Notes under the pieces: generated by a model
Seen by the model: the letters and a program-made list of their open reading frames with translations, nothing else
Databases searched by the model: none
Told to the model about the DNA's origin: nothing
In this document: piece after piece, positions 13,833-45,713 of the stretch
Layout of the letters: the number at the start of each line of letters is the position of its first letter
Position numbering within the stretch: the first letter of the stretch is position 1
Virus record (IMG/VR): IMGVR_UViG_3300034121_000850
Location: 1 to 64,000 of that record
Reading direction: 5' to 3' (one strand)
Origin: a virus
Length of the DNA: 64,000 bases
Made by a program: the position numbers and the translations under genes

Positions 13833-13854
13833 TATTAATTAATCTTTGTTTAAA

Positions 13855-14715: not shown

Positions 14716-14738
14716 GTAAAGTTACTGTTACTGTTTAA

Positions 14739-14783: not shown

Positions 14784-14823
14784 GTTTATATTCGTAAATT
14801 ATATTTATATTATTATCTAATTA

Positions 14824-15885
14824 ATGAGTTTCGATATACACCCAAAAATAACCAAACAGTATATATTAGCAAGACTTACACAAGAAGATATTTTCAATTT
14901 TTACTTATCAAATTTTAATGTAGTAGTTCAAACAAAAAGTTTATTTAGTTCTCCATTTAGAAGAGATAAAGACCCAAGTTGTGGTTTTAAGTATCGCGGT
15001 GATGGTAAACTAATTATGAAAGATTTTGGTGGTGATTTTCATGGTGATTGTTTTGATGTTGTTAAATATATATTTAGATATAATAATTTTTATGATATAT
15101 TAGATACAATAGCCAGAGATTTTTGTATTCATAAATATGAAAATAATAAACCAAAAGATTTTAACATAAATACTCAAAAACTTATAGTTGAGAGTATTAA
15201 CAAAGTTACTGAAAAAACTGATATTAAAATTAAAGTTAGAAAATGGTTAAAAGTTGATGAAGCTTATTGGAAAAAGTTTAATATTACTATTGAGTTATTA
15301 AATTACTATAATGTTTATCCTATACAATTCTTTTGGGTTAATGGAGATTTAAAATATGAATTTGAAGCTGATGATTTAGCATACGCTTATTATTTTGGTA
15401 AAAATAGCGATAATAATGAGAAATTTAAAATTTATTTACCTCTTAGAAAAAAGTTTAGATTTAGACAAAACTGTTCTGTACTACAAGGACTGAATCAATT
15501 AAAAAAAGCAGAATACGGTGTAATAACTAAATCTTTAAAAGATGTTATAAGCCTACGTTCTTTTGGTATTCAAGCTGTTGCTCCTAATTCAGAGAATACT
15601 AAATTGCAGTTAGATGATATACTAACTATAAGAAAAAGCATATTCAAACCTTATTCATTTTATGATAATGATTTAACAGGTATTAGAAATGCAAAAGAAA
15701 TACGTGATACTTATACAATTCCTATAATTATGTATCATAAAAGAACAGTAGCAGAAGAATTTTATCATCCTAAGATTAAAGACTTTTGTAATATTGTTGA
15801 ATATTTAGGAAAAGAAAAAACTAAAAATTTAATTAAACAAATTCAAACAAACATTGAAAATGAAAAACTTAATAGCCCTTTCTGA
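14824..15885 (+). CDS. DnaG-like primase with degenerate zinc finger
   Basis: It is predicted to make RNA primers. The N-terminus matches the DnaG zinc-finger domain in layout (SPFRRDKDPSCGFKY..., then KLIMKDFGGDFHGDCFDVVKYI, residues 43-83). But the metal ligands of CPFH and CFGC are replaced, so zinc is probably not bound. A Toprim-like fold follows: ITKSLKDVISL (234-244, where the usual catalytic Glu of TEGxxD is Lys236) and FYDND (Asp281, Asp283 as the DxD pair). The 353-residue length is short for DnaG because no helicase-binding domain is present. The next gene overlaps its end by 26 bases. Confidence 0.8.
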   Translation: MSFDIHPKITKQYILARLTQEDIFNFYLSNFNVVVQTKSLFSSPFRRDKDPSCGFKYRGDGKLIMKDFGGDFHGDCFDVVKYIFRYNNFYDILDTIARDFCIHKYENNKPKDFNINTQKLIVESINKVTEKTDIKIKVRKWLKVDEAYWKKFNITIELLNYYNVYPIQFFWVNGDLKYEFEADDLAYAYYFGKNSDNNEKFKIYLPLRKKFRFRQNCSVLQGLNQLKKAEYGVITKSLKDVISLRSFGIQAVAPNSENTKLQLDDILTIRKSIFKPYSFYDNDLTGIRNAKEIRDTYTIPIIMYHKRTVAEEFYHPKIKDFCNIVEYLGKEKTKNLIKQIQTNIENEKLNSPF

Positions 15886-16246
15886 TAATGCTCTTTTTAT
15901 TGGTTTTGCTTCTGAAACTTCTTTAAAAGAATCTAAAGCAAAAGTTGAAAAGTTTATGGAAGAAAAATATCCTTTATATACAATATTTGCAGAAGGTAAA
16001 ATAGAAGATACACCTAATGGAATTATAAAACGTGTATTAGATATACCTGATAATGTTGAATCTAAATGGGTAGATTCAGGAAAATGGAAAAATAGAAAAA
16101 CTAATCAAATAGTTAATATTAAACCTAATGACCCTTTTGAATGGATTACATTGAAAAAAGAAGATTTTAACTTCGCATTTAATACATTTAAAGGTTTAAT
16201 TGGAGAAGATTACAAGTTTGGTACAATTTACACATTATGGAAATAA
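15860..16246 (+). CDS. Hypothetical protein, 128 residues
   Basis: It starts at ATG 15860 inside the primase 3' end (26-base overlap); a TTG six bases upstream is a weaker choice. The N-terminus MKNLIALSDNALFIGFASET is hydrophobic but unlikely to be a signal peptide, and two alpha/beta segments follow. It overlaps the RusA-like gene by 10 bases, so all three are coupled. No family is recognised. Confidence 0.66.
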   Translation: MKNLIALSDNALFIGFASETSLKESKAKVEKFMEEKYPLYTIFAEGKIEDTPNGIIKRVLDIPDNVESKWVDSGKWKNRKTNQIVNIKPNDPFEWITLKKEDFNFAFNTFKGLIGEDYKFGTIYTLWK

Positions 16247-17142
16247 TAACCGTAACAATACCTAATTATATTAGGGAAATTCAATTAAGCCGTTCTCAAC
16301 GTGCTATATACTTTGAATGGGATAGTTTTAAGGACAATATTAAGGCTAAAAATAAACCATTATTACAGAAGTATATTAAAGACAAAAATCAAGCTATTAT
16401 GGAAAATCGTGTATCAGTAAGTAACCTTGAAAAAGGTTATTTTATTGGTATATATGTTAAAACATTATTAGTAGGTTCTGTTGTTATATCAGGAGGTAAA
16501 CCAATAGATTCTTTATATAATGGAAAAACTTATAATAGAAAAGATTTTAAATACTATCTAACAGAATCAGATAGCAAAACTATTATATTAGCAAACCCTA
16601 ATCAAGTCGGGCAACCTAATATTAGACCTATTAAAGGACAAGATATTTATACAGGTGGTGAACATATAAGAGCTGCTGTAATAGATAATATTAAAACTTC
16701 TTTAATGTCATACGTTAGGGGTATCCCTGTAATTACAGAATTTCCGATTATGATTGATATGGAAATACATGATACTGTTAAAGCTTGGACTGATAATAGT
16801 CAAGATGTTGTTGGTGGTAATTGGGATGTTGATAATAGAGGTTATCCTTATGCAAAAGCTTTTCCTGATTTATTAGTTAAATTAGGTAAAATACCTGATG
16901 ATGATAGACTTAGAATTACTAAACCTCCTGGCGCTATATTTGTTCCTATTAAAGAAGATGAAACACGTAAATTAGTATTTAGAATTTACACTGATACAAG
17001 AATTTGTATCCAAGAAAATCCTTTTTATAATGGAACTATTATACGTGAAAATGTTAGAAAAGAAAATCAGTCTATTAAAAAGAAAACTAAACATCCTGAT
17101 TATAAACCTAAAGAATTAAGAACAATTAAATTTAAAAAATGA
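16237..17142 (+). CDS. Putative RusA-like Holliday-junction resolvase
   Basis: The C-terminal half contains WDVDNRGYPYAKAFPDLLVKLGKIPDDDRLRI (about residues 196-227). It keeps the RusA pattern D-x-D-N ... K ... D-x-L ... G-x-I-x-D-D, in which the aspartates bind metal. RusA enzymes cut four-way junctions before packaging. The protein is 301 residues, far longer than RusA (about 120), because of an unknown N-terminal region. It overlaps the DnaQ-like gene by 4 bases (ATGA). The function rests on this one motif; a different nuclease or an inactive relative is possible. Confidence 0.58.
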   Translation: MEIITVTIPNYIREIQLSRSQRAIYFEWDSFKDNIKAKNKPLLQKYIKDKNQAIMENRVSVSNLEKGYFIGIYVKTLLVGSVVISGGKPIDSLYNGKTYNRKDFKYYLTESDSKTIILANPNQVGQPNIRPIKGQDIYTGGEHIRAAVIDNIKTSLMSYVRGIPVITEFPIMIDMEIHDTVKAWTDNSQDVVGGNWDVDNRGYPYAKAFPDLLVKLGKIPDDDRLRITKPPGAIFVPIKEDETRKLVFRIYTDTRICIQENPFYNGTIIRENVRKENQSIKKKTKHPDYKPKELRTIKFKK

Positions 17143-28466: not shown

Positions 28467-31400
28467 TTATTTCTTTGTTTTACATTGTTCATTCTTATCT
28501 TCTGCATCTTTATCAGGAATAGAAGAAAAGTCCATACTTGTTTGAGTACCTTTTTTAGAAGTTGATTTTACAGTATTCTTAGTAAATTGAGCAGGACTTG
28601 ATGGTAAATTACCTAAATCTTGAGCTCTTCTAAAAGTTAAAGTTATAGTATATTTAGTTATAACTTCTCCATTAGGTAAAGTAATAGCAGGAAAATCTAG
28701 CATTTTTTTACTATTCATAGGAGTACTATGAGTAAGTTCAAATCTACCTTTCCCATTTAAACCAAAAGTATAAATTGAACCATTTGTAGTTTGTAGTTCG
28801 TTTGTATAACCTTTTAATTTTTCATTATCAGGTAACCATTGTTTATCATATTTATTAGCAAAAGTCATTTTACCATCGTTATCGTCAACAATACCAAGTC
28901 CAGCGTCATTACCGATAGTATATACAATTACAGGGTAATTTCTTGCTGAAACTGATTCAGTAGTATCTTTATGAGGGTAAATGTATTGATCGTCTGTATA
29001 AATGTTACCAATTACACTATCATAAACACTCATATCAACTCCAATAGCTTTTTCAATTTCCCGAATAATTGGGTTTAATACACCTAATGATGGTAATTGA
29101 TTACCTTTTTGGTCTAAACTATGATAAGAATAATACTTAGAATTTTTATCAAAACTGTCAATTTTAACAGGCTTTGCTAAAGGGTTAGTTCTTGCCCACA
29201 TTAAACCATAATGGAACATTTCATTAGCAAATTTACCTTTATTCTCTTTATAGGTTTGTGCTTTAATTTGTGGCTTAATAATATCTACAAATTGTTGAGT
29301 TTTTTCTTTAGTAGGGGTAGTTTCTGCTTGTATAACACCATAAGCTTCTGATACAACTGTTACAGTTTGTTCTGTATTCCAATTATATTTATTGATTAAA
29401 TAATCTAAAGCAGTAGCATGAGAAGGTTCATTAGCTTTATTAGCTTTTGTATTTCCATAATAAATAGGTTTATTTTTAAATTTACCTGATTTAATTTGTT
29501 CTCTTATCCACTCTGCTTGAGGTTCATTACTACTTAGTACAAAATCTATAAAATCAATAACATTTTCTTTAGTAGTTTTACCACTCATATGAAAAGGATT
29601 TTCAAAAGAAGTTGGCATTTTAGTAGATTTATAAGCTACAACTGCATTACCTTTCTTTTGCTCATCAGAATATTCATAAGGTTTTTCTACTATTTTAACA
29701 TTTTCAGATTGAGTTTTATCTCCTAATTGAGAATATATATATTCCGCTGTATTTCCATTATTAGAATCTTTTTCAAGACTTTCTATGGTTTTTATATAAA
29801 CCTCTTTAATAGCAGCTTCACCTGCTGCATTAAGTTCTCTTGTACCGATACCTGCAAAATCTTTAGTAAGTATAGGAGTGCCAACTTTTATAAAATCATT
29901 TTCAGAACTATCCCATTGATACCAACCTATTTCATAATCTTGTGTTTTACGTTGATTAAATACATAAACAGGTTTATCAATTTGTATAGCCATTTCAACA
30001 GCATATCCTGTACCCCCTTCTACAACAGATTTTTTAGACTTATTAGTATAACCTTTTTTATCTACTTCATTAGGACTTAATATAGTAGAAACAGCGTAAA
30101 CAGCATCACTGTTTTTAACTTGAAACCAATTTCTACCATGTAAAGGATAATATTTAGGTATATCAGGTCTACCTAAAATTTTATAAGTTTTTTTAACTCT
30201 TATAACACCTTCTTTTAATTCTTCTGTTGTTATTACTTTATTACCTTTTGGAGTTTTATCTCCATAAAAATAATGGTAATTATTAATCATTCCAAAAGTT
30301 TCACCAATAGTATCCCAAGCACTATCTGCTCCTATTGCTCCACCAGAATGATTAATAAAATTACTTATATCAGTAGTTAACCGTTTAACAACTTTTTTAG
30401 CAAGTTCTATTGCTTTTTCTGCTTTAGTAGCTTCTTTTTCTTCTTCTTGTTTTAAAGATTCTATTTTTAAATCAGATAATTCATCATTTATTTTATTAGA
30501 ATCTAAAATACTAACATCACCTGTTTCAATTAAATTTCTACTACCTAATAAACTTAATGGAACGTAAACCATAAAACCATTTATAATACCTACTTTTTTA
30601 ATAAGTATTTCTGTACTTAAACTTAAATTCTCATTACTATTTGGTATTTTTAATATATCTTTTTGTTGGTCAGCATCTAAATTATGATAATAATCTTCAT
30701 GTATTAAAACTACATTATCTTTAGTTAAACGCCAATCAATACCTTCTACTTTTTGTGTATCCCAATCAACTTGTGTTTTAGTAAGTGGAAGTATATTAGT
30801 ATTATTTCTTAAAAAAGATTCTGAAAATTCTTTATAATAATGGTTATTTTCATCAAAATTATATAATCCTAAACCAACATTAAATTCATTTACTAATATA
30901 TCTAATGATATAATTTTTGCATATGAATCAGTTACAGGGGCTAAACCCCAAGCTAAATCAGCATACAATACTAAATTTTTACCAAGTAATGAAACATAAG
31001 GGTCATTAGAATAATACATTTCATCTAAAGACCTTCTTAATCTTTTTTCAATAGCATCCTCTTTAATATTATTAAATTGTAGTTTCTTACCTTGAGTTTT
31101 AGTTGCAGGTTTAACTTCAATATAATTTATTATATGAGTTTCAGTTGTTTTTAATTTTAAAATATTTTTAACTACTTCTATTTGATTAAAAATAGGATAT
31201 GTTAAAAAATCTTCAAAAGTTAAAGTTTTATTACTATCAACAACAGTATTATTTAATCCAAGAATTGTTTTAATTTGTACATCTGATAATTTAAAAGCAT
31301 CATTACTTCTATACAATTTTGTATTAATAAATTTATCAAAACTTCTTTTAATACCATCTATTTTATTATATTGTGTAATTGGTATATAAGTCCTCAAATC

Positions 31401-34400
31401 ATTAAAAGCTTGTCTAAAGAATGCAGATTCTGTAATAAATAAAGACTCCATAGCATCAGCACCTGCTTTATTAGAATTTAAATAATAAGCTTCTATTAAA
31501 GGATGTACTGATTTTTTATCAATACCAAATAGTTTTGGAAATATAGCTTTAATTAAATTTGTTCTAGTACCATCAGACTCTTCAATATAAAAATCATCTT
31601 TTTTAGCTAATTCTGTTATATTAAAAGTAATATCATGTGTTTTAGTTGTACTTGGACCAGCGCCAATCTTATCAACAGCAAATATAGTAGATAATTTAAG
31701 AATCTTTTTACCTAACTTATCTAATTCTTTAAAATGTTTTAAAGCAATAATTTGACTTTGTATATACTCTATACGTTCAGCAAGAGTTAAAGTTTTTTGT
31801 TTTGATTTTTGTATAGCATTGTCTAAATCTTTTATTGAAAAAACTTTATTAAGACTTCTATCAACACCAAGATATTTTTTTAATGTTTCATTTTTAACTC
31901 TAAATTTAGCATCTTTTAAACCTTGTTCAAAAAGTTTATTTTCTTTTATTTTTTTTGTTTGAACTAAAAGATTATATAAACTACCAAATAAATATCTTTC
32001 AGTATCTTTAATAGTATCACTTAGAAATTTTTGAGATATTATATTATTAGCATTATAATAATTTTCAACCATTTCAAGTATAATAGGTTGATTTACTAAT
32101 AATAACGCTAATTCAATATCCCCTGTAATGTTATTAACAGCTGATATTACATTAAAAGTAACTTCATTTATATTTCTTGGTAAAGGGTTAGCTACGGAGT
32201 CAACAGAATGGTCAGTTAATAAACCATTAATATAAGAGTATTTTTTACCATTAATATTTATAAACGTACCATCGTTATTCCAACCAAATTTATCAAATAC
32301 TATTGTAACAGAATTTTCTGATACTATAACATTATCACTTCCATGTTTTTTAATTAAATCTTCTACCGTAAAAAGAATTTCATTAATAGGATAAGTTGCT
32401 GAATAACTTTGCGAAGATTTTGCTCTAACAGTTTGTAATACAGCCCATGTTCCAGCATTAGAAGCACTTAATCCAGTATTACTTAAACTTCCAACAGATG
32501 AATCTCTAAGATTACCATTAACATTAGGGTCTACAGGATTTGGTTCTTTTTTCTTTGTACCATTTAATTTAGCAGCTATTGCTAATGTTTCAGGGAATTG
32601 AGCAGGTTCAATAGCTTCTAATTGATGTGTACTATTAGACATAACAGACATCATAACATTAAAAGTAACATTTTGACGTTGCGCAACAGTATTATATTCT
32701 AATAAACTATCTACATATAAACTAATTAAATTATCTTTTTCTATGTTATGATTAACAGTAAGGTCATAAATAGCTTGTTTATATTCAGATTCAGCAGCTT
32801 TTGTTGAAGTATTAATTCTTTTAATTTCATCAATATTAGATTGTAATAAAGTATTTTGAACTTTATTTAATTTATCTACAAGTTTATCTCCAATTCTAAC
32901 ATTTTTAATGATATCTTCTATCATATTATTAGAATCGGTAATATATTTAGATTGTAATTCAGCCATTTCTTGAATTACATCTAATCTAAATTCCCAAAAT
33001 TTATCAGTATTAAAAGCAGCTTTAAGGAAAGAATCTGTAATAGTTGTAATTTTAGCAGTTTCTGTTAAACTTAAATTAGCTCTTTCTGCTGCTAAAATTT
33101 TATTAAATTCTACTAATTCTTTTTCTAAAATTTCATACTCATCTTCAAAAGCTTCATTTAATACTTCAAATTCTTTAAATTTATCTGAAAATAAAGTTTG
33201 TAAATTAACATTAGTACGGAAAATATTTTTTATAACAGTAGACTCTCTACTTAAAATAAGTTTCTTTTCTGATATAAGTTGATTACGGTCATTAAAATAA
33301 TTATCATTAAATTGATTTAAAACTTCTTGAAGTTGCTTTCCACTTTTAAAAGCTTTTAAATCTTTTAAATATTCTTTATTAGTTGGTTTTCTTTTAGTAT
33401 CTAATTTCTTAAAACCATCATCTGTTTTTTCATGATGTGCAACCATAACATATAAACTATCTATGTCAAAGTCCATACCTGTTCTAGTAATTAAATCTTT
33501 ATTTACAACCATAGTTGCACCAATTTCTTTTGGTAAAAATCCAACTACTTCTAAAACAGCAACAGAATGTTTACCTGATGTAGGAATCCTATAAGCAATT
33601 AATCTTCTTAAATTAACATCTAATTTATTTATATCAATAAGTTCACCTTTCTCATAAAAATCTGAACTCCAAGCAGGAAGCCAAGTTTCAATAACCCAAA
33701 CACCATCAACAAATTTAACATCTAATTCTCCACTATGTGCTACATCATACATTAAAGCATCAGAAGCTACAATAGCATGGAAACCAGGCATTTTCTGTTT
33801 TGTAACATTATTGCTCCATACAGATAATAATGAACTCATAAAAGTATCTTTAGTGGTATTAGCATCTAAAGGTAAATACAATTTATTAGATTTTTCATCT
33901 ATTGTTAAAGCGGCTTTTAAATTGCTTGATAAAGGTTTAGAAGTATCACTTTTTAAAAAGTCTACAACAGTTTGTAAATCAATGGAAACTTCTCCAAATT
34001 CATCGTAAGTAATACCTAACTTATCATCTACAACTTTTCTAGAAAATTCAAGTAGTTTTACTAAGTTATCTTGAAAAAGTGCAATTACATCAGAACCTTT
34101 TACATTTGTACCATCTACATTATAATTATGTTCAAATGGAATATTTGTTAATATAAATTTAGAAATTTGTACTGCTAATTTTGCAGCATAATCTTCATAA
34201 TCAGTAGGAGTTTCTTGTTGTAATGTCCAATTTTCATTCTTTGCTTTTTCAAAAACAAGATTATCTAAATTATCTAAAAGATTATTGTTAATATCAACAA
34301 TTATATTAGTTTGAAAATGCCCAAACTTCTTACCTGATTTGTAAACAACTTCATCAGCTTTATAACCTATTGTATTATTATTTTCATCTTTTATTGCAAT

Positions 34401-37400
34401 ACTTTCAATAAGTTTACTAATTTGAGTTCTTTCCCCAGTTTTAGGGTTAGTTTCAAACATTTGAGGTATATATGGTACAGCAGCATATTTGAATTGTTTA
34501 GAAACTACAATTTCTACATTTTCATCAAAATTTCTACTATAATCATGAAATTTAAAAACTCCTAATAAAGTTTTAACTTCAAGATAATTTAATTTTTGGT
34601 TTGCTTTAATTTTAGCAAAAAGGTCTTTATAAGTTTCATATCTTCCATGCTCTTTTAAGGTCTTTTCTAAGAAATCAAGCATTATATAACCTCCACCATC
34701 AGAAGTTTTAATTTTTTTATAATCAGCTAAAAGACTTGTTGCTAAAGCTTTAGCTTTAGTTTCTTCAACACCAGTTTCTTCCATAATATCTTTAGTAGTA
34801 TTTTCTACCATCAAATTATATACGGAAGATTCTGATATTATATCATCAACAATTAATATATTACGTGTATCTCCTATTTCTGTTAAAGAACCTTTTTCAC
34901 CAGGAGAACCAGGAGCTTTTGCACGTTTATTAACAGTAACATTATTTGCATATTCGGCAGTAACTCCAAATATAAAATTTTGTAATTCAACGTTATTTAT
35001 ATAATAATTAAGAGAAGATTCAACAAGGAATGTGTTATAATCAGAATCTAAAAACTTTTTATTAGCAACAGTAAAAAATGGACTTAATATTTTTTTAAAT
35101 TTATTATTTGTTTTATAAAATTCTTTATAAATTCCACTAATTTCTTTTTGAATAGCTTCTTCAGCAGCAATTGTATTATCTATACTATTATAAACATCTT
35201 TATAAACAATACCTTGCATAAATAAACTATCAACACTATTTAATGAAGGGATATTATGAAATTCAAAAACTCTTCCTACTGGTTTTTTATTTTGTTGATA
35301 TATTCTTACACCACCTTTTATATGAAAATGATAACTTTCTAAAAAGAATGGTTCATTTTTTCTATTTATTATAAGATTTCCTTGTTCATCCCTTACAACT
35401 CTACGAACACCATTAACTTCTTCTGTTTCATACATAAACAGTGTTGCTTGATGCATACGTTCTACTTCTTGTAAAGTAGTATTATATATTGCATTAAATA
35501 AAGAAGAATCAGTTTTTAATTCTATACCATTTTTATTAAATGTAATATCCCCTTCTTTTACAGCAATTCTTTTAACCTGTAAATCATATCTTGTAGGACT
35601 ATTAGACATTGTTAAAAATGGACTTCTAATCAATTCAGAATTAACATCATATTTTGTTGTAGTTAAATAATTAATAGCATTATTTAAATTCCACTCAAAA
35701 GAATTTTGGGTATTATATTTTTTACCTACACCAGTGGTTGTATTTTTTAAACCATCTTGTCCTAAAATATTAAAATAGTTAAAAAACTCACGATTAAGAG
35801 TAGCTTTTGCTACATCTTTTACGCCATCAGTTGTTAAAAGCATTCCAAATACTTCTTCTGTATTCCATAACCAATTAGAATACTTATTAGAAGGAGATAA
35901 AGCTAAACCTTGTAATCTTGTTAAAAGTTTAGATTCTGCAAGGTTATTACCTTTTTTATAACCTACTATTTCATCTATAAATGTTGTAATAAATGAAGGC
36001 ATCCTATGAGCACCCTCTGTTTTACCTGTTACATTTTTAAAAGTATTTTCTCCTAAAAATATATCATATTTTTTATAAAGTTTTGCTAAACTATTAAAAG
36101 TTTTATAACTGTCAAATCTTTCATTAACAGCGTAATCTCTAATAACTCTAGCAACAGTATTGATAAATACATTTTCTACTACTAATTTTTTATTAGGTTC
36201 TTTATTAGAATTTATAATTTTTATAATAGTTTTCTTATCAATATTTATACCAACTGCATCTAATAATTGTTCAGCTATATTAATTTTATCTTCTAAAGAA
36301 GTATTAAGATTTTTAGCTTTATTTATTTTATTTTGTAGTATAATTAAATTTTCAGGAGTAAAAGCTTTTACTTCATCTTTATATTTAAAGGTTGTAATCC
36401 ATTTATTACTAATACGATGTTCAGCTTTAATATTAGATATAGCAGTTTTAAAACTAAGATTTCCGTCAATTTCTGTAATTCTTTGATTTTCTATATCAAT
36501 ATCAGGAGTTGACATTAAAGCATATAACCCATCCTTAATATTTCCTTTATTTTCTATAATTTTATTATAAAAAATACCATAAAAAGGAGCTATAGTTGTT
36601 ATATTATATAAACGATTCATCATATCGTCAATATTTACTATACCAACAAGTGTTTCTCTTAAATAATTAAAACTTAAATTATAGTCAACAAACTCTACTA
36701 AACCACTTAAAGTATCTTGGTCAACAGTAACTTCAAATTTACCGACAGTAGTGTTAAATGATATATTTTTAACTAAAGGTAAATTATATACAAGTGTTCT
36801 TATAGGGTCGGAAACTCTATCAGCAAAAGGTTTTAAACTTGTAGTATCCTCCCAATTTTTAACAAGTGAATTAGCAGTTTCTTCAGATTCTACATCTATA
36901 TCGTCTAAATCATAATTAAGTTTACTTATTAAATTTTCATTAATTTTAACCCAAATAGAATTTTCAGTATTATTATTTTCTAAATCTTTTAATGTCCTAT
37001 CTAATAAATTTAATTGTTTAAGTTTAAATTCTTTTATTGTAGGATTTTCAGTCTTTTCTACTTCTGCAACTTTTAAATCTATTTTCTTTTTAATAGCATT
37101 AATAGTTGTAGACTTAAATGAATAGACTTCAATATTATCAATAACAGTTTCATCAATAGAACCTTTAAGAGAAGTATTTTTAGCTTCTTGATATTTTTGA
37201 CTAAGAAATCCTGTTAAAGAGTTTAAAAGATGCTCTTCTTCTTCAATACTAAAATTATCAACAACACTTGTAAATTGGTTATTATTTTTAGCAAAATTTA
37301 CAAACGTATCGTTTTCAGAAGTTGATTTAAAATCATTAAGAATACTCCAATTAGATTTTAAAATCTTAGAAAATTCATCATATAAATTAGACTCTTCAAT

Positions 37401-40400
37401 TTGAGGAGCTTTTTCTGCTTTAAATAATTTATTAAAAAACTTAACAATAGAATTAATAATTCTATCAAAGAAACTATCACTTGCTTGTATAGTTTCTTCT
37501 GAATCTATAACTTCTTTTGGGAATTGAAGTTTCTGTAATTCTTTTATTGTATTTTTATTAGAAATAGCTTCTGCAATAAATTCAAGTAAATTAATAGAAG
37601 ATAAACTACTTCTATCAGAAGTTCTTTTCAAATATTCGTTAAATATTACATTAAGTTCTTTGTATAAATTATGAATATTCTTTTCAGAACTGTTTAATTT
37701 ATAGCCATCCTTAACAAGTTTATCTAAAACTTCTCCTTGCATAACAGCATCAACTGTTAATTGATGTCCCAATTCATGTACTAAAACATGATTTGTAAAG
37801 TCATGGATATTTGTTTTAAACTTCTTAGGATTTATAAAAATAGTCTTACGTTTACGACTATAACGTGCAAATATAGAAGCCTTAGTTTTTCCAGTAGAAT
37901 CTTCAAAGAATTTTGAATCATCTAAAACAACTAATTTAATACCATTATTATTAATAAAATGATTTAATATTGTTTTACCTAAAGTACTTTCAGTATTAGC
38001 TAATATGTTTTCAAAAAATTCAGAATTATTTTGAGCAGTTATAACATTCTTACTATGCTTTAAAACAACAGCATCAGTAATTTCCGGAATATTAGCTTCA
38101 TTATTATATAATGATTTTACATCAGCAAACCATAAATCATCCCCAAAAGTAGTAGGTTCTGATGAATCAGTTTTATCAGGTGTAGAATCATCTACTTTAT
38201 CTTCTTTTTTAAGTCCTGTACTGTCTAATGTTAAAACTAATGGATAATGCCCTTTTACAGCAATATTACCAACAAACTTTTTACCAACTTTTACATCAGC
38301 AACATTTGTAGATAACACATCATTTTCAATAATCCAATCATAGTAATCTTCTTTTTTACCAGTTAAAGGATTAACAAAATTATCTACACTCCTATAATCA
38401 TAATTTCTTTTTAGTCCTTTAATAGCATCCTTAATTTTTGCTTTTGCTTTTGAACCTGTAATTAATTCATCATTTACAAGCATAGTAACTAGACTATGCG
38501 CTTTACCAGCTTTATTAAAAGGATATATTTTATAAGAATCATTACCAATAGTAAATTCTATAATTTTATCAGAAATATTTACATTAAAATAAGCAGCATT
38601 AACACCTTTAACATTTTTACGGAATCTACTACTTATAGGGGTAAATACACGAATCTTATCTTTTAAATTATTAATTTTATTATTAATTGTAGCTTCAGGG
38701 TCTTTATGAAATGCATCAATAATTTCTAAAATAGAATTATATACAAAATCCCTTGCTTCAAGATTATCACCTAAATCACTTCTAAATAATTTAACAGGTA
38801 TAGCTTTTCCTTTTACACCATCTATAACTAAATATTGAAAAGCGGATTCAAAATCTTTACCAAGAGTTTTTTCACCTTCTTCAATATATCTATTATAAAC
38901 AGGTTCTCCTGTTTTTAAATCAAAAAGCATTTTAGGATTTTCCCCTAATTTAGTAGATGCTATTGTTACTTTTAATTTTCCTTTTTTAAATTCTTTAATA
39001 GTTCTAAAAATGTAATTATTTTCTTTATCAACTGCAAATTGAACTGCCCCTGATGTTATTCTATTAACTTCAGTATCTACTGTTGCATCAACTCCATTTT
39101 GTTGAATTTTACTTAAAAGTCTATTTCTTAATGTTTGAGTAGCTGCAAAATCGTTTTCTATGATAGTTTTCCACCTTGTTAAAGACCTACGATAATCTTC
39201 ACCCGTACTACTATTATCTACGTTTCTTGATAATAATTTTTGTAAATGGATTACTTTAGAAAAAGCGTTACCACTTGTTGATAATTCTAATATACTTGCT
39301 AAGTTATTACTTATACTTTTATAATTAAAATTAAAAACCTCTTTTCTTAACGCAACTAAATCTTCATTAGAATTTTTTAATAAAGCTTCAACTAATAAAG
39401 GTTCAGAAACTAAATGGACTAAACCACCTTTTGATGATACATTAGCTTCTTTTTCTTCTAAATTAACAGTATTGCCTGTTTTATTTAAATGGGCGATAGC
39501 AACACCTTCTGTTGTTGATACTTTAATAGGTACACCTTTAATCCATTTTTCTAAATCTTCTTTAGATTTAGGTATTCCATTAAATTCTTTATTATCAGTA
39601 TCAATAGATAATACTAATTTTGAACCATTAACTAATTCTTTAATAGCAGCAAGAGTTTTACCTTGTTCTTCTGTTAAAATAACATTTATTTCTTCACGTT
39701 TTACTTTTTCTAAACTACTTATAAATACATTTACTCCACCACCTATATTAGATAGCATATCTTGAAATTCTTCAAAATCTTCTGTATTAGAATCTTTAGC
39801 AAGAAAGAAATCTTCTGCAACAACAGAGTTATAAGGAGTTTCTAAATCTGCTAAAATTTGTTTAATGGTTAAAAGATTTTGATTTATTTTAAGTTGAATT
39901 TCATATATTCTATTTAAAATAATAAGTTCATCCTCTTCTGATAAATTTTCATCATTATCTAACTTCTTTCTATAAAAAGAAAATAAACCTAATAAACCTA
40001 ATAAACTTGCTTCAGTAGGAGTATTAGGAACATTTGCAGTAGTAGGTTGAATATTACCTTCAATAGGTATTAATAATGCACCACCTGTCCAACCTTCATT
40101 ATTAAATCCAGACCATTGCTTACTATCTATTTCACCATTAACAGCTTTTGGTTTAGCACTAAAAGAACCAACATCGTGATAACCAAGTATTAAATCTTTT
40201 GGATTTAAATTATACTCTTTTTGAATTTGAATACCTTCATTTTCTATTTGATTCAAAGAACCTGCAAAATCTCTAACGATTGTATTATCATATTTATCTT
40301 TAAATATAAATACAACAGAACCTCCACTAAATCTACTATAAGCATTTCTATCCTTATAAATTAAATAAGTTCCTGTTCCATCTTGTAATAAAACTTCTCT

Positions 40401-43400
40401 AACAGTTTTTTTAAAACCTTCGGGATTTCTTGTTTTATCAAAAGTAATATCACTAAAAGCCATTTGACGTAAAGGGCTTATTACATTATCAGATACTTTT
40501 AAATCATTAGCTTTCTTATATGATAATTGAACACTATTATCAGCATTCTTTTTAAATACAGGAACCCAATGATTTTCTCTTTTAGCTTTTTCTATATAAT
40601 CTTTATTATATTCATGAGAGTAGTTATTAAAAGCAGAACCATCTAACATAAAATGTCCAACCCCAATAACACCTTTAACTTTTAAACCTTCCTTTGGTAA
40701 ATCTTTTTTAACAGGTACAGGTATATATCTAAAACCATCAGCGTTATCCCATTGACTTCTATAAGAATATATACTATCTTTTGCTGTATAACTATCAGGA
40801 ACAGTACCAATTATTTGAAAAAATTTAGAAGGTTTTGGTTTAACAACTACAACAGGTTTAGCAGCTATAGGAACCATTTGTTCTTCAGCAACTTCTATTA
40901 AACCTTTTTTATCTAAAAATCTTTTAGCCCATTGAGCAGGGGTAGAGTACATAATATCATTAACAACACCCTCTGTAAGAACTTTAGTATCAAAATTAGT
41001 ATTAAAGTTAGTATCTATAGTAGTTGCAAAAGAAGTTATACTAAGAGTAAATACACCTGCTAATGCTAAACTGCCAATTACTTTTCTTATAGCTAAAACT
41101 GCTTTTTGTAAAGCACTTAAAATTTCACCTATAACAGAAGGTTTTTCGGGTTCTCTTAAAGCTTCTAAAACTTTTTCTGTAACTTCTTCTTCTGTAATAC
41201 CTTCTTCTTCTGCAATAGTTGCTACTACTTCAGGAGTTAAAACTTCTTCAATAACTTCTACAAGTTTAGCTTTTTCGCGTGCTTGTTGTAATATATCAGT
41301 TAATGCAACACTTTCTTGTTCTAATTGTTCATTTTCTTTTTCTAAAGCTTCAATTAAGTCTTTATTATCTGCTACTATCTGCGTTGTATCTTCTACTATA
41401 TCACTTACAGGTTCTACTGTAAATTCTATAACAGGGGAAGGAAATTCAATAGTAATATGAGAACCTATAACTTCAGCTATATCTTCAATTACTTCCTCTT
41501 CAATTACTTCCTCTTCAATTATTTCTGTTTTAATACCTAAAGCAGATAGTTCTGCATCATATATTTTTTTAATTTCAAGATCTCCAGAACCCAAAATAGC
41601 TCCTGATTTTATTTTATCAATACTTTTTAAAATATCAGATTTTCTTGCTTCATTATATGGTTTATTTATTTCAGCTAATTTTTGGATAGCCATAATTCTA
41701 CTTTCAATACTAGAACTTGGATTATTTAATACATCTTCTGCATCATGTTTTTCCAATATATCACTACCACTAGGGATAAGTATACTTTTGCCTGTTGATG
41801 TATCTACTCTTCCTGCTATTTTAGATGCTTGTAATTTTAATTCTCTTAAATATCTTTCTTGCCCTTTTGTTTTTGCAAATTCTAGTCTTTGTTTAGCTTC
41901 TTCATCAAATGGTAAGGCTTCTAATTCCTCTTCCCTTCTTCTTTCTATATCAGCTTTAGCATCTGTAGTACTTAAAGCAGCTGGTTCAGCATCGTATTTA
42001 GCAATTATTTCTTTACCAAGTTGTTCTACATTACTTCTTAAAGTTTTTCTTGCATCTGCATTGTTTATAGCAGGAGTATAAGATAATTTTGAATTTATAT
42101 AATCTTCTACTTTATCTGCTAAAGTTGTTAAAGGTCTTGATGTTGCATTAGGGTCTCCATCATTTTTAAAAGTTGCAGGGTCTGTACCATAAAAACTATT
42201 TAACTCATCAGATACAGATTTTACAATATCTGCTACTTCTTTACCCCAATATCTTTCATAATAAGCCTCCATATCAGACTTATCTGTTTTATTAAGCCAA
42301 CCATCTTTTCCAATACCAAAGAATGGATACCATCCAGCTACTAATCCTTTACCTGCTTGACCTGTTGTTAAATAGAATGGTACAATAACACCATTTATAT
42401 TTACTAAAACTTTAGCTCTATCAGTAGATGTTACTACATTCCAGTAATTACCATCTATTTCAAAACCTTCTAATTTAAAATTAGGATTAGAAAAAATTAT
42501 TTCTTCTACACCATTTAGTCCTTTTCTTCTTTCTATATCAGTTTTAGCTTCTTTTATTGATTTATTAATATTAGTTAAAAAATATTCTTCATTTTTACCA
42601 TCTAAAGTATAAGCATTTAATCCTGTAAATTTTACTAAATCTTTTTCAATAGACATACCTCTTGATTTAATCTTATCATTCATATAATTAATATAATCTT
42701 GAATAAGCTTTTGAGGGAATGTACTTTCTATATTTTTTGCTAATTCTCTAAATTTATTTTCTAATGAAACTAAATATTCAGTTTTATTTAAATCAATACC
42801 TTCATTAAGAGTTCCTCTAATATCATTTAACAAAATAGTTGCTTTATGGACATCTTCACCTGTTTTAATACCTTCTTTAAGTAGTTGTCTTAATTGTTTT
42901 ATTTTATTAGCTAATAAGTCTTTTCTTGTTTGCCAATGTTTTTTAAGAATTTCAGTAGTAGCAAATTCTTCTGAATTTACAACATTTTCTAATTCACTTA
43001 TTTGTTCTTCTATGGTAAAAGCTTCTACCGAATAAATGACAACTTCTGCAAGAGTAGGTGTAATAACGATAGGGTTAGTATTACTATCAGGAAAGACAAT
43101 AGGAGCGTCATCAGGAGTGGTATCATCAACAGCAGGAACACTAGAAAATAAAGTATCTTCATTATTGAAAATTTGTTCATCTTTAATATCTTCTATAAAA
43201 TTCTTTAAATAAATATAAGATGGGTTTTCAATAAATTTTTCATCTTGTTCTTCTATAAGTCTTAAAAATCTTTTACCTGCTTTTTTTAATTGATAATAAT
43301 CATCATTATCAATATATTTCTTCATACTTCTATAATAAGCAGGATATGCTACTGCAAAACCTTTTTGACTTACATCTGTAATTCCATCTAATTCTTCTTG

Positions 43401-45713
43401 TGTTAAAGCTTCTTTATTTGCTTTATTTCTATTAGTGTCATTAACACTTTTTAACGTTTCATTATATGTATTAATTTCACTTTTAAAATTAGGATGGTTT
43501 ATATTTAAGTTATCAATATCTTCTTGAGTTAAAGTATTATTTTTAACTTTTTCATCTACAATAGCTTTATCTTTTTCAAAAGCATCTTTTTCCTCTTGTG
43601 CTTTCTTAACTTTAGCTTCTTCTGCTTTTTCTGCTCTAATACGTTTATCGGCTTCTATAGATTTTTTATCAAAATCAGTACCACCTGCTATATCATTATA
43701 TAGCTTTAAGAACTTTTTTTCAACATCTTTTAAATAATAAAATTCTTCAAATTTATTACCTAAATCTTTTTTAGAATCTTTACTTAAATTGCTATAAGTT
43801 GTATTTACATAATTATCAAGATTTGAAAGAACATCACCTTCTTTAAGACCTTTTTCAAATTCTTTTAAAGTAAATTCATTTAAATCTATTAATGATTTAC
43901 CATCTAAACCAGCTTCAAATTCAGTTATTTTTTCCCCTATAAATTCAATATTAGATGCAGCATCATATAACGCAGCCCGCGCTAATTCATGTTTATCTCC
44001 ATAAATACTATTAATCTTATTTTCAAGAGTTTGAAGTTTATAAGCCTTACTTATCATAGCTTCAACAAAATCATCTTGAGTAGCTTTATCAAAAATCTTT
44101 GTATTCGTACCACCAAATTCTTTAGTAAACTCTTCAAAACTTAAATCTTTGAGAAGTTTAATATCTTCTATAAAAGAGTCAAATGTATTAGATTTATTAG
44201 CTAAAGAAACTCTTGCAGCTAAATCAGCTACACCATCAATACCTTCAAAATTACTTGTAGCTTTTGCAAAAAAGTTATTACTATTAGCTTTTACAAATGA
44301 ATTATAAGACTTTTGAAAAACATCACTATCTACATAAGCATTTAATTCTTTTAATAAAGATTCTGTATATAAATCTTGTTGAGTATCTTCCCCTCTAAAA
44401 GCATCCCATATACCACCTTCCATTCTTATACCAATTTTACCTGTACCAGTTCTACCAGGAGCGCCAATACTACCAATAAGAAAACCAATTAAAGCTTGCT
44501 CTTGTCCTTCTTTAGTACCAAAAGATTCTTTTAATGCAAAAGCAGCAGATTCTGCAGCTTGTCCTAATTTATCTAAATTTTCATTATTATATGTATTTCT
44601 ATAATAATCATCTAAATATTTTTCAACTGTATATTGACTTAACTCTTGTGCAGCTTCAGTTAAAGGATTATAAATACCTTTAGCAATCCTTTCAGCTTTT
44701 GTAGCACTAGGAGCTTTTATAAAATTCTTACCAACTCTAATAATATTATTAGGTTTAAAAGCAGCAGTACCCCCTTTTAAGATTTTACCAAATTGTATAG
44801 CATTTGAAAAACCTACAATAGGTAAATTCATTGCAAATCTTACATTACCTAAAACTTCAGAAGCTTCTTTAATTTCTGTTAATTCAGAACCTTCGGGAGT
44901 TCTACCATGTTTTAATATAAAATCATTAGTAGCGTTTCTAACAAAACTGTCTTTACCTTCACGTGCTTCAACAGCAGACTCCGCAACAGCTGATGCAGTA
45001 TAAACTACACCTGTTTCAAAAGCAGTTAAACCAGTATAAGCTGCTCCAGTTTTACCGATAGCATTTGTAGCTTCTGCAATAGAAGTAGCTTTAACACCTC
45101 CTTTAATAGCTAATTTTGCAGCTTTAGTACTAAATTTCATAGCAGCACCAACACCAAAACCCCCTACTAAAGCCCCTGCTGTAAACCCTAAACCACCTAA
45201 AACTTTATCAGCCCAAAAATTAGCAGAAGTAAGCCCTTTTAAAAGTCCAGCATCTTCTTCTGCTTTTGTGTAATAATGAGGAAATCGTTCTTTAATATTA
45301 TCTTTAATAGAATCTAAATACCTTGAAGCATCATTATCAAAAATTAGATTAGCGTCTTTATTAGCTATTGCTTTTGGTATACCATAAGTTATATCTGTAA
45401 CAGTTTCAACAGCGGTAGCCCCAGCTATAGCTGCAAAATTTACTATACCATTAACCCATTTAGTAGATGTAGGAGTTCTTCTTGCACGAATCTCTTCATT
45501 ATTAGCATTAACTTTAAGTTGAAAATCAAATTTAGACATATAATTTCCAGGTACATCTAAACCAGAAAATTTATTATTAGGTTTACCAAGAACAGCTTTA
45601 GCAGCTTCTATATTAAGATTAGTTTCAGTTTTTGCAGTTTTAGGTGTTGGGTCAACCTGTAAAGGTTTATTTAATAACGCGTTAGCTGCGTCTATATTTA
45701 GATTATTCTCCAT
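28467..45713 (-). CDS. Virion RNA polymerase polyprotein (crAss-like), with zincin, SLOG-like and AlkB-like domains
   Basis: This 5748-residue protein is one uninterrupted frame. The catalytic signature is TGMDFDIDSLYVM with Asp4081, Asp4083 and Asp4085. It is preceded by YRIPTSGKHSVAVLEVVGFLP, matching the beta'-like double-psi barrel of crAss-like/YonO RNA polymerases, where the DxDxD Asp residues hold Mg. Other parts: two N-terminal copies of a 15-residue peptide (residues 4-48), a Gly-rich hydrophobic stretch near 165-190, a hydrophobic helix near 1540-1560, an unidentified domain at about 1625-1885, a zincin HELGH at 2646-2650, a SLOG-like Rossmann domain (HSGGAIGADSAWD at 5122, GGTGYAVEMA later), an unidentified domain near 5365-5450, and a C-terminal AlkB-like dioxygenase (His5581, Asp5583, His5662, FRRA with Arg5695-5696). 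In relatives the packaged polymerase transcribes early genes after ejection. Confidence 0.9.
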   Translation of the reverse strand: MENNLNIDAANALLNKPLQVDPTPKTAKTETNLNIEAAKAVLGKPNNKFSGLDVPGNYMSKFDFQLKVNANNEEIRARRTPTSTKWVNGIVNFAAIAGATAVETVTDITYGIPKAIANKDANLIFDNDASRYLDSIKDNIKERFPHYYTKAEEDAGLLKGLTSANFWADKVLGGLGFTAGALVGGFGVGAAMKFSTKAAKLAIKGGVKATSIAEATNAIGKTGAAYTGLTAFETGVVYTASAVAESAVEAREGKDSFVRNATNDFILKHGRTPEGSELTEIKEASEVLGNVRFAMNLPIVGFSNAIQFGKILKGGTAAFKPNNIIRVGKNFIKAPSATKAERIAKGIYNPLTEAAQELSQYTVEKYLDDYYRNTYNNENLDKLGQAAESAAFALKESFGTKEGQEQALIGFLIGSIGAPGRTGTGKIGIRMEGGIWDAFRGEDTQQDLYTESLLKELNAYVDSDVFQKSYNSFVKANSNNFFAKATSNFEGIDGVADLAARVSLANKSNTFDSFIEDIKLLKDLSFEEFTKEFGGTNTKIFDKATQDDFVEAMISKAYKLQTLENKINSIYGDKHELARAALYDAASNIEFIGEKITEFEAGLDGKSLIDLNEFTLKEFEKGLKEGDVLSNLDNYVNTTYSNLSKDSKKDLGNKFEEFYYLKDVEKKFLKLYNDIAGGTDFDKKSIEADKRIRAEKAEEAKVKKAQEEKDAFEKDKAIVDEKVKNNTLTQEDIDNLNINHPNFKSEINTYNETLKSVNDTNRNKANKEALTQEELDGITDVSQKGFAVAYPAYYRSMKKYIDNDDYYQLKKAGKRFLRLIEEQDEKFIENPSYIYLKNFIEDIKDEQIFNNEDTLFSSVPAVDDTTPDDAPIVFPDSNTNPIVITPTLAEVVIYSVEAFTIEEQISELENVVNSEEFATTEILKKHWQTRKDLLANKIKQLRQLLKEGIKTGEDVHKATILLNDIRGTLNEGIDLNKTEYLVSLENKFRELAKNIESTFPQKLIQDYINYMNDKIKSRGMSIEKDLVKFTGLNAYTLDGKNEEYFLTNINKSIKEAKTDIERRKGLNGVEEIIFSNPNFKLEGFEIDGNYWNVVTSTDRAKVLVNINGVIVPFYLTTGQAGKGLVAGWYPFFGIGKDGWLNKTDKSDMEAYYERYWGKEVADIVKSVSDELNSFYGTDPATFKNDGDPNATSRPLTTLADKVEDYINSKLSYTPAINNADARKTLRSNVEQLGKEIIAKYDAEPAALSTTDAKADIERRREEELEALPFDEEAKQRLEFAKTKGQERYLRELKLQASKIAGRVDTSTGKSILIPSGSDILEKHDAEDVLNNPSSSIESRIMAIQKLAEINKPYNEARKSDILKSIDKIKSGAILGSGDLEIKKIYDAELSALGIKTEIIEEEVIEEEVIEDIAEVIGSHITIEFPSPVIEFTVEPVSDIVEDTTQIVADNKDLIEALEKENEQLEQESVALTDILQQAREKAKLVEVIEEVLTPEVVATIAEEEGITEEEVTEKVLEALREPEKPSVIGEILSALQKAVLAIRKVIGSLALAGVFTLSITSFATTIDTNFNTNFDTKVLTEGVVNDIMYSTPAQWAKRFLDKKGLIEVAEEQMVPIAAKPVVVVKPKPSKFFQIIGTVPDSYTAKDSIYSYRSQWDNADGFRYIPVPVKKDLPKEGLKVKGVIGVGHFMLDGSAFNNYSHEYNKDYIEKAKRENHWVPVFKKNADNSVQLSYKKANDLKVSDNVISPLRQMAFSDITFDKTRNPEGFKKTVREVLLQDGTGTYLIYKDRNAYSRFSGGSVVFIFKDKYDNTIVRDFAGSLNQIENEGIQIQKEYNLNPKDLILGYHDVGSFSAKPKAVNGEIDSKQWSGFNNEGWTGGALLIPIEGNIQPTTANVPNTPTEASLLGLLGLFSFYRKKLDNDENLSEEDELIILNRIYEIQLKINQNLLTIKQILADLETPYNSVVAEDFFLAKDSNTEDFEEFQDMLSNIGGGVNVFISSLEKVKREEINVILTEEQGKTLAAIKELVNGSKLVLSIDTDNKEFNGIPKSKEDLEKWIKGVPIKVSTTEGVAIAHLNKTGNTVNLEEKEANVSSKGGLVHLVSEPLLVEALLKNSNEDLVALRKEVFNFNYKSISNNLASILELSTSGNAFSKVIHLQKLLSRNVDNSSTGEDYRRSLTRWKTIIENDFAATQTLRNRLLSKIQQNGVDATVDTEVNRITSGAVQFAVDKENNYIFRTIKEFKKGKLKVTIASTKLGENPKMLFDLKTGEPVYNRYIEEGEKTLGKDFESAFQYLVIDGVKGKAIPVKLFRSDLGDNLEARDFVYNSILEIIDAFHKDPEATINNKINNLKDKIRVFTPISSRFRKNVKGVNAAYFNVNISDKIIEFTIGNDSYKIYPFNKAGKAHSLVTMLVNDELITGSKAKAKIKDAIKGLKRNYDYRSVDNFVNPLTGKKEDYYDWIIENDVLSTNVADVKVGKKFVGNIAVKGHYPLVLTLDSTGLKKEDKVDDSTPDKTDSSEPTTFGDDLWFADVKSLYNNEANIPEITDAVVLKHSKNVITAQNNSEFFENILANTESTLGKTILNHFINNNGIKLVVLDDSKFFEDSTGKTKASIFARYSRKRKTIFINPKKFKTNIHDFTNHVLVHELGHQLTVDAVMQGEVLDKLVKDGYKLNSSEKNIHNLYKELNVIFNEYLKRTSDRSSLSSINLLEFIAEAISNKNTIKELQKLQFPKEVIDSEETIQASDSFFDRIINSIVKFFNKLFKAEKAPQIEESNLYDEFSKILKSNWSILNDFKSTSENDTFVNFAKNNNQFTSVVDNFSIEEEEHLLNSLTGFLSQKYQEAKNTSLKGSIDETVIDNIEVYSFKSTTINAIKKKIDLKVAEVEKTENPTIKEFKLKQLNLLDRTLKDLENNNTENSIWVKINENLISKLNYDLDDIDVESEETANSLVKNWEDTTSLKPFADRVSDPIRTLVYNLPLVKNISFNTTVGKFEVTVDQDTLSGLVEFVDYNLSFNYLRETLVGIVNIDDMMNRLYNITTIAPFYGIFYNKIIENKGNIKDGLYALMSTPDIDIENQRITEIDGNLSFKTAISNIKAEHRISNKWITTFKYKDEVKAFTPENLIILQNKINKAKNLNTSLEDKINIAEQLLDAVGINIDKKTIIKIINSNKEPNKKLVVENVFINTVARVIRDYAVNERFDSYKTFNSLAKLYKKYDIFLGENTFKNVTGKTEGAHRMPSFITTFIDEIVGYKKGNNLAESKLLTRLQGLALSPSNKYSNWLWNTEEVFGMLLTTDGVKDVAKATLNREFFNYFNILGQDGLKNTTTGVGKKYNTQNSFEWNLNNAINYLTTTKYDVNSELIRSPFLTMSNSPTRYDLQVKRIAVKEGDITFNKNGIELKTDSSLFNAIYNTTLQEVERMHQATLFMYETEEVNGVRRVVRDEQGNLIINRKNEPFFLESYHFHIKGGVRIYQQNKKPVGRVFEFHNIPSLNSVDSLFMQGIVYKDVYNSIDNTIAAEEAIQKEISGIYKEFYKTNNKFKKILSPFFTVANKKFLDSDYNTFLVESSLNYYINNVELQNFIFGVTAEYANNVTVNKRAKAPGSPGEKGSLTEIGDTRNILIVDDIISESSVYNLMVENTTKDIMEETGVEETKAKALATSLLADYKKIKTSDGGGYIMLDFLEKTLKEHGRYETYKDLFAKIKANQKLNYLEVKTLLGVFKFHDYSRNFDENVEIVVSKQFKYAAVPYIPQMFETNPKTGERTQISKLIESIAIKDENNNTIGYKADEVVYKSGKKFGHFQTNIIVDINNNLLDNLDNLVFEKAKNENWTLQQETPTDYEDYAAKLAVQISKFILTNIPFEHNYNVDGTNVKGSDVIALFQDNLVKLLEFSRKVVDDKLGITYDEFGEVSIDLQTVVDFLKSDTSKPLSSNLKAALTIDEKSNKLYLPLDANTTKDTFMSSLLSVWSNNVTKQKMPGFHAIVASDALMYDVAHSGELDVKFVDGVWVIETWLPAWSSDFYEKGELIDINKLDVNLRRLIAYRIPTSGKHSVAVLEVVGFLPKEIGATMVVNKDLITRTGMDFDIDSLYVMVAHHEKTDDGFKKLDTKRKPTNKEYLKDLKAFKSGKQLQEVLNQFNDNYFNDRNQLISEKKLILSRESTVIKNIFRTNVNLQTLFSDKFKEFEVLNEAFEDEYEILEKELVEFNKILAAERANLSLTETAKITTITDSFLKAAFNTDKFWEFRLDVIQEMAELQSKYITDSNNMIEDIIKNVRIGDKLVDKLNKVQNTLLQSNIDEIKRINTSTKAAESEYKQAIYDLTVNHNIEKDNLISLYVDSLLEYNTVAQRQNVTFNVMMSVMSNSTHQLEAIEPAQFPETLAIAAKLNGTKKKEPNPVDPNVNGNLRDSSVGSLSNTGLSASNAGTWAVLQTVRAKSSQSYSATYPINEILFTVEDLIKKHGSDNVIVSENSVTIVFDKFGWNNDGTFININGKKYSYINGLLTDHSVDSVANPLPRNINEVTFNVISAVNNITGDIELALLLVNQPIILEMVENYYNANNIISQKFLSDTIKDTERYLFGSLYNLLVQTKKIKENKLFEQGLKDAKFRVKNETLKKYLGVDRSLNKVFSIKDLDNAIQKSKQKTLTLAERIEYIQSQIIALKHFKELDKLGKKILKLSTIFAVDKIGAGPSTTKTHDITFNITELAKKDDFYIEESDGTRTNLIKAIFPKLFGIDKKSVHPLIEAYYLNSNKAGADAMESLFITESAFFRQAFNDLRTYIPITQYNKIDGIKRSFDKFINTKLYRSNDAFKLSDVQIKTILGLNNTVVDSNKTLTFEDFLTYPIFNQIEVVKNILKLKTTETHIINYIEVKPATKTQGKKLQFNNIKEDAIEKRLRRSLDEMYYSNDPYVSLLGKNLVLYADLAWGLAPVTDSYAKIISLDILVNEFNVGLGLYNFDENNHYYKEFSESFLRNNTNILPLTKTQVDWDTQKVEGIDWRLTKDNVVLIHEDYYHNLDADQQKDILKIPNSNENLSLSTEILIKKVGIINGFMVYVPLSLLGSRNLIETGDVSILDSNKINDELSDLKIESLKQEEEKEATKAEKAIELAKKVVKRLTTDISNFINHSGGAIGADSAWDTIGETFGMINNYHYFYGDKTPKGNKVITTEELKEGVIRVKKTYKILGRPDIPKYYPLHGRNWFQVKNSDAVYAVSTILSPNEVDKKGYTNKSKKSVVEGGTGYAVEMAIQIDKPVYVFNQRKTQDYEIGWYQWDSSENDFIKVGTPILTKDFAGIGTRELNAAGEAAIKEVYIKTIESLEKDSNNGNTAEYIYSQLGDKTQSENVKIVEKPYEYSDEQKKGNAVVAYKSTKMPTSFENPFHMSGKTTKENVIDFIDFVLSSNEPQAEWIREQIKSGKFKNKPIYYGNTKANKANEPSHATALDYLINKYNWNTEQTVTVVSEAYGVIQAETTPTKEKTQQFVDIIKPQIKAQTYKENKGKFANEMFHYGLMWARTNPLAKPVKIDSFDKNSKYYSYHSLDQKGNQLPSLGVLNPIIREIEKAIGVDMSVYDSVIGNIYTDDQYIYPHKDTTESVSARNYPVIVYTIGNDAGLGIVDDNDGKMTFANKYDKQWLPDNEKLKGYTNELQTTNGSIYTFGLNGKGRFELTHSTPMNSKKMLDFPAITLPNGEVITKYTITLTFRRAQDLGNLPSSPAQFTKNTVKSTSKKGTQTSMDFSSIPDKDAEDKNEQCKTKK
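41482..41526 (-). repeat. In-frame 15-base tandem repeat in the RNAP gene
   Basis: Three copies of TCTTCAATTACTTCC (41482-41496, 41497-41511, 41512-41526, the last with two changes) code for an acidic E-E-V-I-E repeat of the giant protein near residue 1400. It is a slippage-prone acidic linker between regions and gives no sign of function beyond that. Confidence 0.7.

Follow-up and report, generated by a model that had tools for sequence, protein, structure and literature searches.

Phages of the crAss-like group are highly abundant and deliver a giant polymerase of their own into the host. Several described systems resemble parts of the locus analysed here. The presence of the polymerase in the virion and its ejection into the host have been shown for other crAss phages (PMC10172136; PMC7886860), and three RNAP-associated proteins were detected in crAss001 virions, for which an ejection model was proposed (PMC10172136). 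Among the polyvalent proteins are virion RNA polymerases of the N4 type that carry peptidase, ART and further effector domains; a search of that work for dioxygenase, 2OG, NADAR and crAss gave no match (PMC5512222). AlkB domains occur in the replicase polyproteins of plant RNA viruses of the Flexiviridae and Closteroviridae (PMC544882), and jumbo phages encode stand-alone AlkB-like dioxygenases, for which a role in resetting the methylation of phage or host DNA was suggested (PMC7824862). In the open-licence full-text literature we found nothing that joins AlkB with crAss-like phages or with a virion RNA polymerase. An earlier note on the present DNA, which proposed an AlkB-like dioxygenase fused to a virion RNA polymerase, was aware of no polymerase previously reported to be fused in this way. 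As far as we found, no earlier description exists of an AlkB fusion to a DNA-dependent or virion RNA polymerase, but the claim does not extend to the plant RNA virus replicases (PMC544882).

The window, a stretch of 64 kb from an 82,888-bp virus record, has as its longest frame a giant ORF of 5,748 residues (28467-45713, minus strand) that joins a crAss-like virion-type RNA polymerase to effector-like C-terminal modules. By tblastn, the C-terminal 3,000 residues of this ORF matched 95 phage records, mostly crAss-like, among them annotated crAss RNAP catalytic subunits (cr107_1, best E 3e-37; crAss002, E 2e-36). The region similar to these Crassvirales subunits, the polymerase core, spans residues 3240-4088 (33450-35996, minus strand). 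While a PDB search with a single polymerase sequence gave no match, a profile made from the window core and six relatives matched 6vr4, the solved crAss-like phage RNA polymerase, at E 4.8e-43. The polymerase has its catalytic metal-binding motif, DxDxD, in the form DFDID (residues 4081-4085; 33459-33473, minus strand), all three Asp being invariant in the seven-member polymerase alignment. These matches identify the giant ORF as a crAss-like virion-type RNA polymerase, and with 6vr4 matched and DFDID in the same ORF, the fusion to a virion-type polymerase proposed in the earlier note holds. By analogy with the other crAss phages, the window polymerase would be located in the virion. Its polymerase, SLOG, DUF4326-like and AlkB-like domains share one ORF and would presumably share this location.

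N-terminal of the core lies HELGH (residues 2646-2650; 37764-37778, minus strand), a possible zincin-like metallopeptidase motif at which the SprT-like family PF10263 matched below threshold (E 0.0062-0.031). A zincin-like peptidase is present in N4-type virion polymerases, and HELGH possibly marks a peptidase of that kind. Further towards the N-terminus, residues ~1600-1950 (window ~39900-40900, minus strand) resemble part of a surface protein that was inserted into the polymerase ORF, with a hydrophobic segment ahead of this region and ASLLGLLGLFSFYRKK after it. Elsewhere in the window, ARAGORN predicted a phage-borne tmRNA (61-460, plus strand) with a 26-residue tag ending in YGIAA, and a tRNA-Leu (3624-3710).

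The AlkB-like 2OG-Fe(II) dioxygenase domain occupies residues 5451-5700 (28614-29363, minus strand), that is, the C-terminal 250 residues ahead of a polar tail formed by the last 48 residues of the giant ORF. The earlier note had put the domain at residues 5542-5748. The C-terminal location stands, but this interval cuts the domain, as BLAST against the first relative (L002) shows the module homology beginning at residue 5451, some 90 residues upstream; a 207-residue query taken from the shorter interval found no match among viral contigs. Aligned with E. coli AlkB, N5570-x-Y5572 (28998-29006, minus strand) is the counterpart of N120-x-Y122. H5581-x-D5583-x-x-E5586 (28956-28973, minus strand) contains the Fe(II) ligands equivalent to H131 and D133, together with the equivalent of E136, and R5657...H5662 (28728-28745, minus strand) contains the distal Fe(II) ligand equivalent to H187. 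Finally, T5689-I-T-L-T-F-R5695-R5696 (28626-28649, minus strand) corresponds to the AlkB RxxxxxR motif with Thr for the first Arg. N5570, Y5572, H5581, D5583, E5586, R5657 and H5662 are identical in all 18 family members, and R5695 and R5696 are unchanged in all 17 that extend that far. PHKD (5580), ELTHS (5659) and ITLTFRR (5690), from which the domain was originally recognised, sit where the earlier note had them, and H5581, D5583, H5662 and R5695 were correctly numbered. The bare H-x-D...H...R pattern that it offered as evidence is nonetheless worthless alone, arising in 69% of shuffles of the giant protein. The fuller pattern NxY...HxDxxE...R...H...R arises in 0.2% of such shuffles, and chance is ruled out because the residues are conserved across the family.

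Profile and fold comparisons place the domain with AlkB, the predicted fold being a double-stranded beta-helix closest to those of AlkB and ALKBH proteins. PF13532 (AlkB-type 2OG-FeII_Oxy_2) matched 10 of 10 members scanned singly, with a best E of 5.6e-8 and with every single-member match scoring below the Pfam gathering score of 31.2 bits; for the window, E was 1.6e-4 with the domain alone and 3.8e-5 with the 638-residue C-terminus as query. AlphaFold, given ten sequences, produced a model (pLDDT 75.7, pTM 0.82) whose best PDB match in Foldseek was E. coli AlkB (6y0q; E 1.3e-8, prob 1.00, TM 0.70 by target), and nearly all of the best 50 PDB matches listed were AlkB or ALKBH proteins (AlkB, ALKBH1/2/3/5/6). 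This model superseded one from four sequences that was poor (pLDDT 53.6), yet already matched AlkB. With hhalign, the 18-member alignment matched E. coli AlkB, a single-sequence template, at E 1.1e-4 and a probability of 56%, pairing NxY with N120/Y122, HxDxxE with H131/D133/E136, the distal His with its counterpart, and LTFR with LTFR210. The AlkB-like identity and the likeness to the 'LTFR' end of AlkB proteins, both put forward in the earlier note, and the overlay of the Fe ligands, which it named as a check, are borne out by these comparisons. We regard it as almost certain that the C-terminal domain is an AlkB-like Fe(II)/2OG dioxygenase and that it is a mobile module. With the single sequence as query, the PDB yielded no matches beyond GAPDH, intimin and RCC1 repeats; a GAPDH or RCC1-like fold was rejected, these being chance matches and the RCC1 likeness reflecting a G-x-I/L-Y-x-F/W-G motif. 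NCBIfam gave no useful match. A separate reading frame was ruled out, the module being in frame and continuous, as was a sequencing chimera, the module being present in many independent contigs.

The cofactor pocket departs from the AlkB pattern. AlkB homologues share HxD, H and RxxxxxR, in which the first R coordinates 2-oxoglutarate (PMC544882). This first Arg, R204 of AlkB, binds the 2OG C5-carboxylate and corresponds to T5689 in the window. Of 17 members, 15 have Thr at this position, and only L027 and L029 have Arg; most members are thus predicted to have part of the 2OG pocket changed. With Thr as the counterpart of R204, 2OG has to be bound in another way or less tightly, and it is because the first Arg is missing that we speak of a divergent AlkB-like branch rather than of an AlkB with established cofactor binding. 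The counterpart of D135, a base-contacting residue of AlkB, is also Thr.

The fusion recurs in related contigs, where the earlier note had suggested looking for it. Successive scans of viral contigs found the AlkB-like module in 32 of them. It lies inside a giant ORF in 30, and DxDxD occurs within the same ORF in 22 of these 30, most of the eight giant ORFs without it running off the end of the examined stretch. The module is usually C-terminal of the polymerase; it is N-terminal in L011, whose ORF (aa ~700-4715) contains SLOG, an ASCH-like region (by eye), AlkB, HExxH and the polymerase, and resembles a helicase at its C-terminus. Stand-alone module genes were found in a 368-kb viral contig (L019, 265 aa) and in L028, where the gene is cut by the contig end. 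Around the former (L019 1246-17415) we noted by eye ORFs resembling Sir2, PRPP synthetase, Thg1, CYTH, Nudix and nucleoside deoxyribosyltransferase. Scans of genomes gave no match the first time and one locus the second. A 280-residue stand-alone relative is present in a contig assigned to a Legionellaceae MAG (L112) and possibly represents the cellular source of the module. Its neighbours (L112 2907-5994), both noted by eye, are an RlmN/Cfr-like radical SAM ORF and a second ORF that contains the motif WHIDGHQGH and resembles another 2OG-Fe(II) enzyme. Searches with three different family members detected no relative of the module among 50,697 GenBank phage records, no match was found in plasmids, and no member was found in a cultured phage. 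The module is absent from all 80 sampled other crAss-like polymerase loci and is therefore an uncommon accessory.

The history of the module differs from that of the polymerase that carries it. Between the window and L002 the AlkB domains are 74% identical, the polymerase cores 22%. The window polymerase is 22-27% identical to all twelve others, with AlkB identities ranging from 41 to 74%, and across 78 pairs AlkB identity does not correlate with polymerase identity (r 0.10). Grouping the window with L002 is rejected by the polymerase data (p-AU 2.7e-5), but not by the AlkB data (p 0.38). Likewise, the grouping of L012 with L020, which belong to a supported AlkB group with L021, is rejected by the polymerase data (p 0.001). 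Since the polymerase branches are long, the exact polymerase tree is unsure; the comparisons nevertheless indicate that the AlkB-like module has moved between very different polymerase lineages. Ratios of dN/dS of 0.10-0.24 in seven of eight pairs, and of 0.38 in the eighth, indicate that the domain is under purifying selection.

In the window, the AlkB-like domain is preceded by a SLOG/DprA-like domain and then a DUF4326-like module. The former (residues 5118-5310; 29784-30362, minus strand) matched phrog_768 at E 3.9e-10 and our own HMM, built with the window sequence included, at 6e-76. The latter (residues 5355-5445; 29379-29651, minus strand) was named by eye and has no PHROG or Pfam match; it matched our own HMM, likewise built with the window sequence included, at 2e-35. 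In 20 of the 30 fused contigs the same ORF also encodes one or more SLOG, NADAR, macro-like or DUF4326-like modules, in varying order, for example NADAR (PF08719, E 8.5e-13) in L007 and phrog_2072/DUF7831 (E 9e-37; macro-like by eye) in L015. Among the 80 other crAss-like polymerase ORFs, 15 contain one (L037, L039, L054, L058, L059, L066, L071, L079, L084, L087, L089, L091, L095, L100 and L106), a difference that is biased because the HMMs derive from AlkB-bearing loci. In cr130_1 (L006), SLOG, NADAR and macro-like pieces reside in one annotated giant CDS. SLOG modules also lie inside the N4-type virion RNA polymerases of Klebsiella phage Pylas (L003, ORF 5049-16514, aa 987-1161) and Alteromonas phage PT15-A5 (L004, aa 1109-1252). 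These are 39-42% identical to the window SLOG, and SLOG has apparently been acquired independently by two unrelated kinds of injected polymerase. SLOG, NADAR, macro and DUF4326 have been proposed to handle NAD or ADP-ribose signals in virus-host conflict (PMC9503650; PMC7824862). In addition, the AlphaFold model matched the AlkB-like region of a 1,058-residue Pithovirus protein named 'NADAR domain protein' (2.4e-6), an independent sign that AlkB-like and NADAR domains go together.

What might such a domain do at the end of an injected polymerase? The reading that we favour, and hold to be reasonably probable, is that of a mobile AlkB-like dioxygenase, injected with the polymerase, that de-alkylates nucleic acid early in infection. 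Nucleic-acid de-alkylation as the activity of the domain, taken by itself, is assigned tentatively, with a little less than even confidence. The part in repair or demethylation that the earlier note suggested is likewise conjectural. As in crAss-like phages generally, virions would contain the polymerase and eject it into the cell either before the DNA or together with it; the domain would then be in the cytoplasm before phage gene expression. If it acts like the AlkB family, it would use host iron, 2-oxoglutarate and oxygen to oxidise an alkyl or methyl group attached through nitrogen to a nucleic-acid base, whereupon the group would fall off and the base would be restored. The likely site of action would be the incoming phage genome or the first transcripts, where lesions or host-made marks that block the injected polymerase could be cleared. 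The SLOG, NADAR, macro-like and DUF4326-like neighbours suggest that the entire polymerase tail serves as a set of counter-defence tools. Several points count against this de-alkylation reading: the counterpart of R204 is Thr in most members and that of D135 is Thr as well, the PF13532 matches of single members stay below the gathering score, AlkB chemistry requires O2, and relatives within the AlkB family also act on proteins.

It is conceivable, though unlikely, that the domain instead hydroxylates a host or phage protein, or that it hydroxylates or hypermodifies a base, acting as a writer rather than an eraser. 2OG dioxygenases are versatile, protein-acting members exist within the AlkB family, and both the substrate-side counterpart of D135 and the 2OG Arg are changed. 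However, fold comparison ranks the nucleic-acid demethylases AlkB, ALKBH2, ALKBH3 and ALKBH5 highest, with no protein hydroxylase among the 50 PDB matches listed.

Perhaps the domain works in the NAD/ADP-ribose chemistry of its neighbours and complements the NADAR and macro-like modules, oxidatively stripping ADP-ribosyl-type adducts (such as those left by DarT-like toxins) from DNA bases or processing defence signals derived from nucleotides. We consider this scenario rather improbable. It would fit the tails that hold SLOG, NADAR, macro-like (phrog_2072) or DUF4326-like modules in two thirds of the fused viral contigs (20 of 30) and in the window, the Pithovirus match, and the Sir2-, PRPP-synthetase- and Nudix-like ORFs seen by eye near the stand-alone gene of L019. 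However, our own HMMs find none of these modules in 10 of the 30 fused contigs, the count is biased by HMMs built from these very loci, and co-residence in the tails may only mean that all of these modules serve counter-defence. Moreover, we know of no AlkB-family enzyme that acts on ADP-ribose linkages. We give little credence to the speculation that an AlkB-type dioxygenase injected from the virion erases host-made, non-methyl defence marks on phage nucleic acid, for example ADP-ribosylated bases, in concert with the NADAR and macro-like modules of a polymerase tail in which counter-defence modules are shuffled.

We also doubt that the domain is a degenerate, non-catalytic dioxygenase kept for binding or structure, be it in packaging, ejection or DNA or RNA binding. 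The counterpart of R204 is indeed lost in most members, and C-terminal regions serve packaging in other large virion proteins. Yet every one of the 18 divergent members keeps NxY and all three Fe ligands, dN/dS is low, the module also exists as a stand-alone gene, and packaging does not need it, because none of the 80 sampled vRNAP ORFs of the same kind has it. A chance resemblance or an unrelated fold, to which the frequency of the three-motif pattern in shuffles might point, is refuted by the family-wide profile, fold and conservation evidence and has a negligible probability.

If the de-alkylation reading is correct, a phage polymerase can bear an exchangeable enzymatic tail with an oxidative nucleic-acid de-modification domain, and viruses may arrive with a ready-made de-modifying enzyme. 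This would be a candidate route for repairing or clearing the phage genome or the first transcripts ahead of phage gene expression, for which some 30 natural fusions are available as a test set. The SLOG, NADAR, macro-like and DUF4326-like modules, for their part, point to the virion polymerase as a platform for early counter-defence delivery.

Each known system shares part of this architecture. The crAss-like virion RNA polymerases (phi14:2, 6vr4; crAss001 gp47/49/50) are homologous to the window in the polymerase core, but those in GenBank differ in that no AlkB relative was found in the phage records. E. coli AlkB and human ALKBH2/3/5 have the fold and Fe-ligand layout in common with the window domain, which differs from them in its ~15% identity, the lost R204 counterpart, the change of D135 to Thr, its extra inserts and its fusion to a polymerase. 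The jumbo-phage AlkB-like enzymes are also phage-encoded, but they are free-standing, expressed after infection starts and not fused to a polymerase. Polyvalent proteins resemble the window ORF in uniting a large multidomain polymerase with exchangeable effector domains, virion delivery being presumed for the window; their N4-type polymerases differ from its two-barrel crAss type. A further parallel is with the plant RNA virus replicases, in which AlkB likewise resides in a viral polymerase polyprotein, is scattered among relatives and has a history discordant with that of the polymerase. Their AlkB domains are described as keeping RxxxxxR (PMC544882), whereas in the window the first R is Thr, and their polymerase is an RNA-dependent enzyme that the host cell produces during infection, whereas that of the window is a DNA-dependent, virion-type phage polymerase that would be injected.
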